This document shows, piece by piece, positions 2,335-18,944 of a DNA stretch of 64,000 nt. This DNA is from Flavobacteriales bacterium (GTDB lineage: Bacteria > Bacteroidota > Bacteroidia > Flavobacteriales > UBA1820). The notes under the pieces were generated by a model. It saw only the letters and a program-made list of their open reading frames with translations. It ran no database searches and was not told the origin of the DNA. The number at the start of each line of letters is the position of its first letter. The first letter of the stretch is position 1. The translations under genes were made by a program, and so were the position numbers. Location: positions 1 to 64,000 of the forward strand of contig QALN01000012.1 of the NCBI GenBank assembly GCA_003150615.1. Reading direction: 5' to 3'.

Positions 2335-3148
2335 TTTATTCAACAGAATATTCGGCAGGCTTGAAACGTTATTTTCCAAGCCGAGGTTGCGGATAATAAA
2401 GACATTGTATGTGAATTTCCGTCTTCTGCCGTTTTCCCAGGCCGTGAAGTTGCCTGTTTACGTGTACGGTCCTTTGAAGATAATTTCCCTCAAAGGGAAA
2501 ATGAAAATAGAAGCCGATACTATACGCAAGGGTATGGTGTGTTTCGGATATAAATCTTTCGGCCCGGGTTTTTCTGGTGTTAAGAGCAGACTCTTGATTG
2601 CAGGGACCATGGTCGTGCGTGGTGATTTGATAATATATAACGGTTTTTCTTTGTTAGTAAACAGCGGTGCTGTATTTGCCGTAGGAAATGGGATCACCGT
2701 AGGACATAATGCCATTATGATGTGTTACCATAGCATTAGTATGGGGGATTTTTCAAGATTTTCCACCGGTCTTTATATGATAGATACTAACGGCCATCAT
2801 ATAATGGATATTGAAAAACGCACTATAGACAGTATAGTGCGCAGGATAGACATAGGCGGATACAGCTGGATAGGGAACAATGTTTCCGTTGCTCGTGGGA
2901 CTGTGCTGCCGGGCCATACGATAGTTGCCAACAAGAGCCTTGTAAACAGGGATTATACGAAAGATGTCCCTGAATATTCGATAATAGCCGGTACGCCTGC
3001 AAAGTTGATAAAGACAGGTTTTGCCAGAGTATATAACGAAAAGAACGAAAGTATGCTCAGGAAATTTTTCGGAGATACCGGACACGATACTGTATTCCGT
3101 TACGAAGGAGACGATATAAAAGGCTTTTGCTATGGACACGAGATTTAA
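2327..3148 (+). CDS. Hexapeptide-repeat acyltransferase (WbbJ-like)
   Basis: A 273-residue protein with a central left-handed beta-helix. The repeats run through LLIAGTMVVRGDLIIYNG and GNGITVGHNAIMM to a late IGGYSWIGNNVSVARGTVLPGHTIV, followed by the cap YSIIAGTPAKLIKTG that is typical of maltose/galactoside O-acetyltransferase and WbbJ-like enzymes. HH at 'TNGHH' is the likely catalytic His region. It probably O-acetylates a sugar of the surface polysaccharide at the cytoplasmic face of the membrane. It overlaps wzx by 8 bases and the following esterase by 17, so it is firmly in the operon. The C-terminal 40 residues are acidic and outside the helix. Confidence 0.85.
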   Translation: MSDLFNRIFGRLETLFSKPRLRIIKTLYVNFRLLPFSQAVKLPVYVYGPLKIISLKGKMKIEADTIRKGMVCFGYKSFGPGFSGVKSRLLIAGTMVVRGDLIIYNGFSLLVNSGAVFAVGNGITVGHNAIMMCYHSISMGDFSRFSTGLYMIDTNGHHIMDIEKRTIDSIVRRIDIGGYSWIGNNVSVARGTVLPGHTIVANKSLVNRDYTKDVPEYSIIAGTPAKLIKTGFARVYNEKNESMLRKFFGDTGHDTVFRYEGDDIKGFCYGHEI

Positions 3149-8755: not shown

Positions 8756-10009
8756 ATGAGTGAAGAAATGGAAATAGGAACGACGGAAAATACAATGGCC
8801 GGAAAAACTTTAAAGGCATTTGAAAAACTGTGCCGGTATTGTCAGGCGGAGAAGTTCAAAGGTTGGGACCCTTATGACGGGCTCAATTCAAAGGTGTTTT
8901 CGAGCATTCCGCTTTTGAAAAAATCCGGGTTTCTCCGTTTGGTGATGATACAGGGATTCAAGCGCTCGCCGTTCAATCTGCGCCGTATGTTCATGGTCCC
9001 GAAAGAATACAATGCCAAAGGTATCGGCCTGTTTTTGCAAGGTTATTGCAACTTGTACGAAACCGTACATGCGCATCCTTTCATGGCCGGGTATCTTGGG
9101 ACTGAAGAAGAATTGATATCGCGGATAGACGAACTGGCCGGGATACTCATAGGGTTGAAGTCCGAGGGTTACAGCGGAGCTTGCTGGGGGTATAATTTCG
9201 ACTGGCAGGCGCGGCTGGAATTTCTTTTCCCCAAGAATACTCCTACGGTGGTGGCGACTGCATTTTGCGCTACCGCGCTCGAGGATGCCGCAAGGATTAC
9301 GGGCAACGGAAAATATCTCGACGTGGCATTGTCCTCGTCGCGGTTTGTGCTTAACGATCTGCATCGTACCGAGTTCGAAGGAGGATTCTTGTTTTCATAC
9401 AGCCCGCTTGAAGGAAACGATACCGTTTTCAATGCTTCTCTTTTGGGAAGCAAGCTGTTGGGTATGTGTTATGCGCATACCGGTGACAGGGAGTGCCTGG
9501 ATGCGGCGCAGGCTTCTGTCAGGGCATGTTGTCGCGCTCAGGCAGATGATGGTTCGTGGGTTTACGGCACTTCGCCGGTGCAGGGTTGGATAGACAGTTT
9601 TCATACGGGATATAATCTCGACGCTCTTGCTTGTTACGGTGAAACGACCGGCGATAAGTCTTTTGACGGCAATATGGAACGCGGATTTGAATTTTACGTG
9701 AATAATTTTTTCGAGCCCGACGGCACTCCGAAGTATTACCATGACAGGGCCTATCCGATAGACATACACTGTCCCGGACAATTGTTTGTGACACTCTCGC
9801 GTTTGCACAGGTTCGATGGGAAATGCCGCGATCTTGCCGATAAGGTAATGAATTGGACTATCGCCAATATGCAGGATGAAAAAGGGTATTTTTATTATCA
9901 GCTTAAAAAGGGCGTGAGTTCTAAAATACCTTACATGCGTTGGAGCAATGCGTTCATGTTCAATGCTATGTCACATTATATATTAAAACTAAATAAATTT
10001 CAATTATGA
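8756..10009 (+). CDS. Six-hairpin (alpha/alpha toroid) protein of polysaccharide locus, function unknown
   Basis: 417 residues without signal peptide or membrane segments. Repeating helical hairpins carry conserved motifs: GACWGYNFDWQAR near residue 142, VVATAFCATALEDAARITGNGKYLD near 163, DDGSWVYG near 265, IDSFHTGYNLDAL near 278 and DIHCPGQLFVTLSRL near 330. The pattern is that of six-hairpin glycosidase-like/terpenoid-cyclase-like toroids found in EPS loci. Such proteins are often labelled 'delta-aminolevulinic acid dehydratase' in databases, which nothing here supports. A role in trimming or modifying a lipid-linked glycan is an inference. It ends in ATGA overlapping the next gene start. 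Confidence 0.65.
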   Translation: MSEEMEIGTTENTMAGKTLKAFEKLCRYCQAEKFKGWDPYDGLNSKVFSSIPLLKKSGFLRLVMIQGFKRSPFNLRRMFMVPKEYNAKGIGLFLQGYCNLYETVHAHPFMAGYLGTEEELISRIDELAGILIGLKSEGYSGACWGYNFDWQARLEFLFPKNTPTVVATAFCATALEDAARITGNGKYLDVALSSSRFVLNDLHRTEFEGGFLFSYSPLEGNDTVFNASLLGSKLLGMCYAHTGDRECLDAAQASVRACCRAQADDGSWVYGTSPVQGWIDSFHTGYNLDALACYGETTGDKSFDGNMERGFEFYVNNFFEPDGTPKYYHDRAYPIDIHCPGQLFVTLSRLHRFDGKCRDLADKVMNWTIANMQDEKGYFYYQLKKGVSSKIPYMRWSNAFMFNAMSHYILKLNKFQL

Positions 10010-10435
10010 ATCTAAAAAGATTAAAAACGCTTTTATTCTTGCATCTTCAACATCTCCCGATGAAGAGTAGAGGAATAAGACCTTTATTTGTTAAGGGGGG
10101 GGGTAAATATTGTTAATGCGAAAAAGACATTTATCGGTGAAAATGTGATTTTCGATACTAACTATCCGGAAGATATAACCATAGAACCGGGAGTGCGTAT
10201 TACAGCAGGGTGTGTTATCATGACACATTTTATGGACCCTTCCATAAAAACTTATTCGCGCGGTAAAGTACACATCAAAAAAAATGCATACATAGGATGT
10301 AATTCGATAATATGCAAATCGGTGACTATAGGTGAAAATGCGATAATTGGAGCCGGTTCGATAATAAATAAGGATATCCCTGGTAATGAAGTTTGGGCGG
10401 GAAATCCCGTACGATTCATACGGAAATTAAAATAA
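10006..10435 (+). pseudogene. Hexapeptide acyltransferase frameshifted at a G9 tract, probably phase-variable
   Basis: An ATG at 10006 (overlapping the upstream stop as ATGA) opens MNLKRLKTLLFLHLQHLPM...RPLFVKGG, then runs into a stop at 10114-10116 just after nine consecutive G (10095-10103). One base fewer (G8) joins it to the downstream frame ...VNIVNAKKTFIGENVIFD..., giving a continuous 142-residue protein. That product is a complete small left-handed beta-helix O-acetyltransferase: IGCNSIICKSVTIGENAIIGAGSIINKDIPGN, cap EVWAGNPVRFIRKLK. As written the gene is OFF, giving a 36-residue peptide. The 3' part is still open from a TTG at 10088, but that start lacks the N-terminal helix. Confidence 0.8.
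10095..10103 (+). repeat. Homopolymeric G9 tract inside acyltransferase gene
   Basis: Nine G in a row, 90 bases after the start codon of the acyltransferase. Loss of one G (or gain of two) restores the reading frame. Tracts of this kind are classical slipped-strand mispairing sites in contingency genes, and are also a typical place for sequencing indels. Confidence 0.85.
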
Positions 10436-10444
10436 TGATTACAT

Positions 10445-11155
10445 ATGAGAGGAGTTTGTCCGGAATTCAGAGTTTTAAACGGCATAAAGGTTTATTCGTT
10501 CTCGGGTTTTGACGATATAATAGATGCTGCTGTAAGCACGCGAAGCATAATGGTGGCATGTAATTCCGATAAACTGTATTACAGCCAGCAAAGGCTCAAG
10601 GATATAATAAACGCGAATATCGGTTATTGCGACGGCGTGGGTGCGGTATGGGCTTTGGAAAGGAAAGGAGTAAAAGGAGCGGTAAAGATAGCCGGGTGCG
10701 ACTTGTGGCTGGAGATAATAAAGCGTTATCCGGAAGCGAAGTATTATCTGGTAGGCGCCGAACAGCAGGTGATAGATGAAGTGGTGAAAAAGCTGCATGT
10801 TGAATATCCTGAAATGGATATAGTCGGTTTTCGCAACGGTTTTCTCAAATCCGATCAGGAGAAAGACGTACTCGTAAAGGATATTTGCGAAAAGCGGCCC
10901 GATTTTGTGTTCGTGGCTATGGGATCTCCCAAACAGGAATATATGCTCGACGATATACACAGCGTCTATCCTGTGCCTATGATGGGCTTGGGAGGCAGTT
11001 TCAACGTATATGCCGGAAAGGTAAAACGCGCGCCGAAGTGGATACAGGATATAAAAATGGAAATGATCTACAGATATATTTTTAATAAAGTTAGCATTAA
11101 ACGTATATACTGTGACTTCAAGTTTTTTCTTATGTTAGTATTTAACAGATTATAG
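10445..11155 (+). CDS. WecG/TagA/CpsF-family glycosyltransferase (GT26)
   Basis: 236 residues with the family hallmarks in order: INANIGYCDGVGAVWA near residue 57, KIAGCDLWLEII near 80, YYLVGAEQQVIDEVVKKL near 100, VFVAMGSPKQEYML near 155, and GLGGSFNVYAGKVKRAPKWI near 179-198. Members transfer ManNAcA, ManNAc or a related sugar to undecaprenyl-PP-linked GlcNAc at the inner leaflet of the cytoplasmic membrane. The C-terminal basic/hydrophobic helix (about 205-236) probably binds the membrane. It probably adds the second sugar of the repeat unit. The initiating phosphoglycosyltransferase is not in this window. Confidence 0.9.
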   Translation: MRGVCPEFRVLNGIKVYSFSGFDDIIDAAVSTRSIMVACNSDKLYYSQQRLKDIINANIGYCDGVGAVWALERKGVKGAVKIAGCDLWLEIIKRYPEAKYYLVGAEQQVIDEVVKKLHVEYPEMDIVGFRNGFLKSDQEKDVLVKDICEKRPDFVFVAMGSPKQEYMLDDIHSVYPVPMMGLGGSFNVYAGKVKRAPKWIQDIKMEMIYRYIFNKVSIKRIYCDFKFFLMLVFNRL

Positions 11156-17823: not shown

Positions 17824-18944
17824 ATGAAAAATTTTTTTAACCCGGCGGTGAAATTGCTGGCTCCTGTCTTTTTGGGCCTCGTCGTCTTTTCTTGCGGAAA
17901 AGGATGCGAAACGGTGTATTTCACAGTCGATGTAAACACTTCGCTTCCTGGCGATACCGTAGCGCATCTGGAGAGTTCTCCGGGAGTGCTCATGGCTCCG
18001 CCTGAGGCCATGGACGCACAGTCCACCCCCCCCGTTTGGTAATATGCTTTAATTCAGGGGGTTGTAAATTTGAGCCCGGACATACTGAAATTGAAAACAG
18101 TATTCAGGCCAAGTACCTCGTGTCGAAAGGTTATGCCGTGATGTGTATGACCGGACTTCCGGAGCATTACAGCCGGAGACTGAAGATAGACCGCGCCCGC
18201 ACGGCAGGCAGTCATGTGATTCACCGGGCTTGTCTTGCAGGTTACGATTATGTATTGTCAAAGTACAACGTCCGGCATGACGGATGTTATCTGCTGTCCG
18301 TGTCGACGGGAGGCCTGGCGGCGTTGAACATTCTTAACCTTAGCGATATACCTGTATTGGCGGCGGCAGGGATAAATCCGCTTACCAGTACGGCTGAAAA
18401 TGCCTGGCATGTGCCTTCCGGCAGTTCTTCGGGCGGTGAGTTCGACAGTTTGCAGTACCGTTCGAATATCATACGTATTTTCGGAATGAAGGATGCGGCG
18501 ACGCTTTCCGAACTTGAAAATGCGCGGTATGAAAAAGACAAGGTAGGCATTTACGACCCTTACGATTATTGCCTTAACCGGTCGGACAAGCCGTTAAGGG
18601 CTCCGTATCTGGTATTCAGCCACACGGATGACAAGGTGGTAAGGCGCGGCATAGTCGATACGCTGGCCTGTGTGATGAACGCCCGCAGGGAAGGAAGCGT
18701 ATTGGTGAGCGATGTACAGGAATACGGTCACGGTATAGATTGCCCGCAGGAGTTTCAGGGCGTATTGCTTTTCGACGGGCATATACACAGGATCAACCTT
18801 ACTACCAGGCTAATATTCATGTTTTTTGAAAAGTACAGGTACGGCGGTGCGCGGGCGGTTAGGGGACGTGCCTTGCCGGCGGCGTATTTTTCAGAACACG
18901 CAGGAGATGTCCTCGGCCGTGTCCCCGGAGGGGGAAAGCCTTAA
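17824..18944 (+). pseudogene. Lipoprotein alpha/beta-hydrolase (esterase) frameshifted at a C8 tract, probably phase-variable
   Basis: ATG 17824 opens a lipoprotein signal (lipobox LVVFSC, Cys24), and the frame stops at 18040-18042 right after eight C (18026-18033). Adding one C gives a continuous 373-residue protein whose second part starts ...PPRLVICFNSGGCKFEPG. That part has a beta-strand/oxyanion segment, YAVMCMTGLPEHYSRR, nucleophile-elbow LLSVSTGGLAAL, an acid in SHTDDKVV and a His in YGHGID, which together are a plausible catalytic triad. As written only a 72-residue lipoprotein stub would be made. The downstream part is open from a TTG at 18036. It follows rfbB and probably deacylates the polymer in the periplasm or at the cell surface. 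The last 54 bases overlap nrdG on the opposite strand. Confidence 0.78.
18026..18033 (+). repeat. Homopolymeric C8 tract inside esterase gene
   Basis: Eight C in a row at the junction of the two open halves of the lipoprotein esterase. C9 (or C6) restores the frame. With the G9 run at 10095 it is one of only two G/C runs of seven or more that I find by eye in 64 kb. Confidence 0.8.

Follow-up and report, generated by a model that had tools for sequence, protein, structure and literature searches.

A G9 tract at the frame break of a hexapeptide-repeat acyltransferase gene in a surface-glycan locus: a candidate slipped-strand contingency locus

The window analysed here, the whole 64-kb stretch of DNA, carries a surface-glycan locus in which several genes could be named by Pfam and flippase-like and dTDP-sugar genes were recognised by eye. 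Its PNPase reaches at most 64% identity among the matches listed from 393 Bacteroidales genomes, 363 of which had a match, so that the window can be placed in a Bacteroidales-like lineage without close representatives in that set. Within it, on the plus strand, a gene for a GH88-like protein (8756..10009; Pfam PF07470, 1.1e-4, below its cut-off) is followed by an acyltransferase gene in two pieces and then by a gene for a WecG/TagA/CpsF-family glycosyltransferase (10445..11155, plus strand; PF03808, 8.9e-44). The N-terminal piece of the acyltransferase gene (10006..10116, plus strand) starts with an ATG at 10006 that shares the sequence ATGA with the TGA stop of the preceding gene. It comprises 36 codons, with the product MNLKRLKTLLFLHLQHLPMKSRGIRPLFVKGGGKYC, and ends at a stop codon at 10114-10116. 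Its 30th codon, AAG, gives its G to a run of nine Gs (G9; 10095..10103, plus strand), which is where the frame breaks. The core of the enzyme is intact but lies in a different frame (10088..10435, plus strand), its ORF of 115 amino acids opening with a TTG at 10088. The initial annotation had described a start overlapping the upstream gene, 30 sense codons ahead of nine Gs, a stop soon after them and a complete hexapeptide-repeat core downstream in another frame, and each of these elements was found again, with the qualification that the 30th codon and the tract have one G in common.

The two pieces represent one gene in two frames, because the first matches the N-termini of related proteins (20 of 33 residues identical to the N-terminus of P0012) and the second matches their core (62-74% identity to the cores of loci L001-L012). 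The G9 tract is the longest G run of the window, the next longest being G6, and a first-order Markov estimate gives 0.34 runs of at least nine Gs per window by chance, so that the tract alone is statistically unremarkable. As far as the sequences tell, the weight of the evidence is in its position at an intragenic frame break and in the tracts that relatives carry at the corresponding site. The tract is a simple repeat placed where a change in length alters the reading frame, as is characteristic of contingency loci. A run of eight As within the core (10277-10284) causes no frame damage.

The two neighbouring genes are conserved, with 66% identity (GH88-like) and 46% identity (WecG-type) to their counterparts in P. 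vulgatus. Among 15 relative loci, some of whose misses fall at contig ends, a GH88-like gene (59-68% identical) is found beside the acyltransferase gene in 11, with a 24% match besides in L001, and a WecG-type transferase gene is found near it in 10. As both neighbours recur, the acyltransferase appears to be part of a recurring glycan module, and the enzyme would therefore acylate a sugar of that glycan. The glycan-locus context proposed in the initial annotation is supported. The regular presence of a GH88-like hydrolase fold in glycan synthesis loci, together with an acyltransferase and a WecG-type transferase, is an unusual placement for such a protein. As for mobility, one plasmid record carries a relative, with 45% identity over 79% of the query, and 22 viral contigs contain partial matches (34-51%). 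At 1e-15, a set of 50,697 phage records contained no relative, and by this measure the gene is not one of the phage-borne acetyltransferases of the NeuO kind.

The window core matches the Hexapep family (PF00132, 4.8e-12) and is a hexapeptide-repeat protein, with a left-handed beta-helix. In the structural model of the full-length relative P0012 (mean pLDDT 96.6, 40 aligned relatives), helices 3-14 and 24-31 form an N-terminal cap that precedes the beta-helix. The codons of the tract correspond to residues 31-34 of this protein, which the model places at the hinge where the two-helix cap meets the beta-helix. The alignment of 40 full-length proteins shows the cap to be conserved, and H75 of P0012 is invariant across the 40 aligned relatives, so that it may have a part in an acyl-CoA-dependent transfer to a sugar. 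The model matches maltose and galactoside O-acetyltransferases, and the core has the fold and sequence of the LacA/Maa type (e.g. 4isx, 3ftt and 1kqa), with sequence matches that cover mainly the core and identities to these and other structures of 16-28% among the 50 structural matches listed. Superposition on the NeuO structure 3jqy_C gave a TMq of 0.60 and an rmsd of 2.9. The window core scored below the cut-off of every one of the 25 best-matching NCBIfam families compared, and the scores for xenobiotic acetyltransferases of the Vat and CatB types stayed below theirs (Vat_ABCDEFH, 44.0 bits vs 300; CatB, 36 vs 350). An assignment to the hexapeptide-repeat sugar-acetyltransferase type, in a glycan locus, is supported, and the group moved is most likely an O-acetyl group.

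We read the Gly-Gly-Val site in the DNA of 17 loci, namely the window, L001-L012, L081, L159, L162 and L163, of which L005 and L006 are two copies in one complete genome, that of P. vulgatus ATCC 8482. Nine of the 17 have G8-G9 at this site, i.e. the window and eight others. The frame is broken in five of the nine (the window, G9; L001, G8; L002, G9; L005 and L006, both G8) and open in four (L003, G8; L008, G9; L011, G9; and L159, G8, with a protein identity of about 50%). The run is interrupted, shorter or absent in the remaining eight loci (L004, L007, L009, L010, L012, L081, L162, where it is G7, and L163, which lacks the Gly-Gly pair), and all eight are open. With L163 left out, Fisher's test on these related loci gave a p value of 0.034 for the link between tract and broken frame (5/9 vs 0/7), and of 0.077 when the second P. 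vulgatus copy was also omitted. The association runs in the expected direction but is weak, the loci being few and related. A tree of 15 acyltransferase cores, whose sequences are too short to resolve it, has one starred branch of 12, and in 8 of 200 label shuffles on this tree the value for all three groups was as low. The shuffles show some clustering of labels by descent, and hence the loci are not independent. Regarding codon usage, GGGGGG encodes 23 of the 650 Gly-Gly pairs in long ORFs, counted over the window and the loci L001-L012 and L114-L157, which is an overestimate because most loci in this set were picked for their tracts, the true background being lower. The acyltransferase gene itself is sparsely distributed: it was detected in 2 of 393 order-wide genomes at 1e-25, in 2 of 61 genomes from the P. 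vulgatus genus and in 3 of 249 from the family to which L001 belongs. Both copies in P. vulgatus ATCC 8482 have the same G8 and are broken, and since their tract lengths are equal these duplicates provide no direct evidence of slippage.

Broken and open alleles of the same gene were identified in relatives. The broken L001 (G8) and the unbroken P0012 (143 amino acids, 10 members) are identical at 33/33 N-terminal and 112/112 core residues, and the broken L002 (G9) shares its N-terminal peptide and 112/112 core residues with the unbroken P0046 (143 amino acids, 32 members). Three pairs of proteins have identical cores and differ only before them, P0003/P0004 (112/112), P0017/P0023 (115/115) and P0028/P0034 (111/111). 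A looser pair consists of P0174 and L008, with 110/113 core residues in common and an N-terminus of P0174 that comes from another frame of L008. To judge from their sequences, such allele pairs are the outcome of a recent change of frame, without implying that the change is reversible. The pair P0146/P0150 was dropped because P0146 starts with V and may be at a contig edge, and so was P0088, the core of which is 99% identical to those of its partners. Altogether, 182 family proteins were collected from two protein searches (the best 120 matches of each). In a rough automatic sort of the 182, 27 begin at or near the tract and 105 are full length; this sort errs both ways, as P0005 and P0117 do not start at the tract, and the full-length P0006 and P0009 were missed.

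In-frame and out-of-frame alleles thus occur in the relatives, whereas in the window's own species the broken form alone was found among the best 120 of 432 protein matches. It is represented there by P0001 (37 members) and P0002 (1 member), and no unbroken form was found among the same matches. A single residue separates P0001 from the window core, and P0001 starts with MLRGGV, as expected from a G9 reading. Among the best 120 of 902 matches, the close relatives in P. vulgatus are the short forms P0129, P0131 and P0140, the last of which (34 members) is without the start of the core, and none is a clean full-length form. P0130 and P0133, from the same 120 matches, have N-termini that match nothing in the family and were dropped as evidence. 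The species of L081 has seven junction variants without a pure tract (P0087, P0089, P0102, P0108, P0111, P0112 and P0120). In these, an alternative upstream frame joins the core in seven ways, as if deletions at the hinge had arisen repeatedly, and the junctions look more like repeated loss than slippage. Such results fit a repeated loss of activity as well as they fit a switch.

A second gene of the window is also split. Its N-terminal piece (17824..18042, plus strand; 72 codons) has a lipoprotein-like start by eye and is identical to residues 34-60 of P0126 at 13 of 27 positions. A C8 tract (18026..18033, plus strand), the only other G/C run of at least 7 in the window, lies at the frame break, and a piece of 302 codons that is hydrolase-like by eye and bears no NCBIfam name (18036..18944, plus strand) continues in another frame, with 120 of 270 residues identical to P0126. 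Six relatives are single proteins of 338-352 amino acids, and the two closest of 8 database entries are short forms, P0121 (208 members) and P0122 (4 members). No relative was found at 1e-30 in 295 genomes, but as this set had no positive control the negative carries no weight.

In P. vulgatus, we counted 21 G/C runs of at least 8, five of which touch acyltransferase genes. Two duplicated loci with a pair of hexapeptide enzymes apiece account for four of these, and an Acyl_transf_3 enzyme for the fifth. Other runs of at least 8 lie in intact ordinary genes, such as those for glutamine synthetase, peptidases and a TonB receptor, and a G8 run by itself is therefore no proof of a switch. An automatic classing of tracts in G002 and G003 as split or open was not used for counts, since it is misled by apparent ORFs on the opposite strands.

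Several of the P. vulgatus tracts lie at or near apparent frame changes. The Acyl_transf_3 gene (L126:2054-3013; PF01757, 1.2e-18) has a G8 at 3000-3007, which is its 5' end, and an ATG touching this run reads in a frame other than that of the gene. The second hexapeptide acyltransferase, beside the first one (L117:4324-4773 and L114:5970-6416), has a G8 near its 3' end, and its frame stops a few bases after the run, leaving the C-terminal portion of the matching EpsC/CysE profiles uncovered. At L125:2772-3642, a C13 tract (2999-3011), the longest G/C run listed for this genome, has an open piece of 80 codons on one side and, in a different frame on the other, a piece that matches pectinesterase. 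Finally, two regions that are 94% alike differ in run length, with G11 at L115:3928 and G10 at L116:6768, and no ORF of 100 codons covers the run; the flank before the G11 resembles the flank before the acyltransferase tract.

We consider it probable that the acyltransferase gene of the window is a poly-G contingency locus, present here in its OFF state, that controls a hexapeptide-repeat acyltransferase of surface-glycan synthesis. Slipped-strand mispairing during replication would alter the length of the G tract, and only one frame in three would link the helical cap at the N-terminus with the beta-helix; with the broken frame of the window, translation ends four codons after the tract. Within a clone, cells would then differ in an acyl group, most likely O-acetyl, on a sugar of the surface glycan, and the benefit would probably be the evasion of phages or of host recognition. 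Slippage, its reversibility, the O-acetyl group, the substrate and the benefit are the components that we infer. Long tracts at this site in other Bacteroidales, with broken and open states in close alleles, are as predicted for a slipped-strand contingency locus, and the second G/C tract that breaks a second gene in the same window counts in favour of a switch. The proposal of phase variation made in the initial annotation thus gains from the recurrence of the tract and from the alleles of relatives, but not from the window's own species, given the broken form only among the best 120 of 432 matches.

The same observations might be explained by strain-level loss of function, the G run being a site prone to mutation at which the gene breaks time and again, usually without being restored. 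We regard this as unlikely, albeit deserving serious attention in view of the exclusively broken forms among the matches compared for the window's species (best 120 of 432) and for P. vulgatus (best 120 of 902), and of the seven junction variants in the species of L081. However, the cores of the broken alleles are undecayed, as the window core is one residue away from P0001 and those of L001 and L002 equal their unbroken copies, and divergent species have kept a long tract at these codons, the unbroken L003, L008, L011 and L159 among them. A G9 fixed in all isolates together with decay downstream was one of the two outcomes that the initial annotation held to be incompatible with its proposal. 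There is no such decay, the downstream half being intact, whereas with respect to fixation the broken form is the only one among the best 120 of 432 matches. The other outcome was an assembly error, and homopolymers are indeed where sequencing errors gather. This explanation has become very improbable, since the 37 members of P0001, with their one different residue, encode the same broken reading from MLRGGV onwards, the complete genome of P. vulgatus has broken copies, and the A8 run in the same core leaves the frame intact.

Two further explanations assign a function to the break itself. Under programmed recoding, the broken gene would still yield some full-length protein, either because ribosomes shift frame at the G run or through slippage during its transcription. 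The slippery run that several species share at this site speaks for it, and homopolymers of at least 8 are quoted as sites of transcriptional realignment (PMC3711429), although the cited passage names poly-A/T as the usual slip sites. One frame relation between the two halves would be expected, but this relation is not conserved, as open and broken genes each occur with G8 and with G9, and we find this explanation barely plausible. We give even less credence to an isoform switch, in which a start codon bordering the tract would also give rise to the core by itself, so that tract length would select a capped or an uncapped enzyme. P0008, P0025, P0028 and P0129 do begin with MGGV, a start picked by gene callers, an ATG in frame with the core touches the tract in L001 and L005, and the core carries hexapeptide repeats by itself. 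In the window, however, the start is TTG, a weak start codon, and the conservation of the cap in the 40 aligned full-length proteins implies that the core alone may not work.

Surface variation in the Bacteroidales is known mainly from DNA inversion. It is tempting to speculate that these bacteria also own a poly-G system, in which a glycan module of several lineages is under the control of the hinge tract and other acyltransferases, such as the second hexapeptide enzyme of P. vulgatus and the Acyl_transf_3 enzyme, each with G8 at an apparent frame break, are controlled likewise. Surface acylation would then be common and stochastically switched in gut Bacteroidales, an extension that we put forward tentatively and would not yet endorse. 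If the contingency reading of the tract is correct, populations of gut Bacteroidales, possibly including the P. vulgatus type strain, would mix acyl-plus and acyl-minus cells, which might account for differences in phage sensitivity and antibody binding among the cells of a clone. A second switching mechanism would thereby exist beside DNA inversion, one invisible to inversion-finding programs. As the readout is the length of a single tract, switching is checkable in existing deep metagenomes.

Poly-G switching of an acyltransferase in Bacteroidales was not reported among the top-ranked open-access full-text matches, which is no proof of absence, and comparable systems are found elsewhere. In the poly-G loci of Campylobacter, Neisseria and Helicobacter, as they are described in part of the literature, an intragenic G tract likewise sets the halves of surface genes in or out of frame. 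Those loci belong to a different phylum and gene family, and the tracts in our loci are G8-G9, whereas those of the pathogens are often longer. The LacA/Maa-type sugar O-acetyltransferases have their core fold and sequence in common with the window enzyme. NeuO, the polysialic acid O-acetyltransferase of E. coli K1, is like the window enzyme a surface-glycan acetyltransferase, and the passages cited describe its O-acetylation as phase-variable (PMC3046976, PMC13001214). It is prophage-borne according to such passages, unlike the window acyltransferase with its lack of relatives in the phage records searched, and it varies by heteropolymeric repeats (PMC3090145), whereas a single-base G run lies inside our gene. 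In Bacteroides fragilis, acetyltransferase genes of the PSI/9 polysaccharide locus are disrupted in one strain, as here, and slippage is one origin of variation that the authors consider possible (PMC3090145). One gene is frameshifted at four consecutive Cs, and the other has a point-mutation stop; the PSI/9 passage describes neither a long tract nor recurrence across species, unlike what we found for the acyltransferase. The pilus switch of Bifidobacterium breve is similarly an intragenic G tract in a gut commensal, turned on and off by replication slippage according to the passage cited (PMC9187656). It concerns pilus genes and was measured by maximum depth sequencing (PMC9187656), whereas the present case is a Bacteroidales glycan acyltransferase known from sequence comparison. 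The kind of switch is well known, and its lineage and gene family appear to be new in the top-ranked open-access literature.
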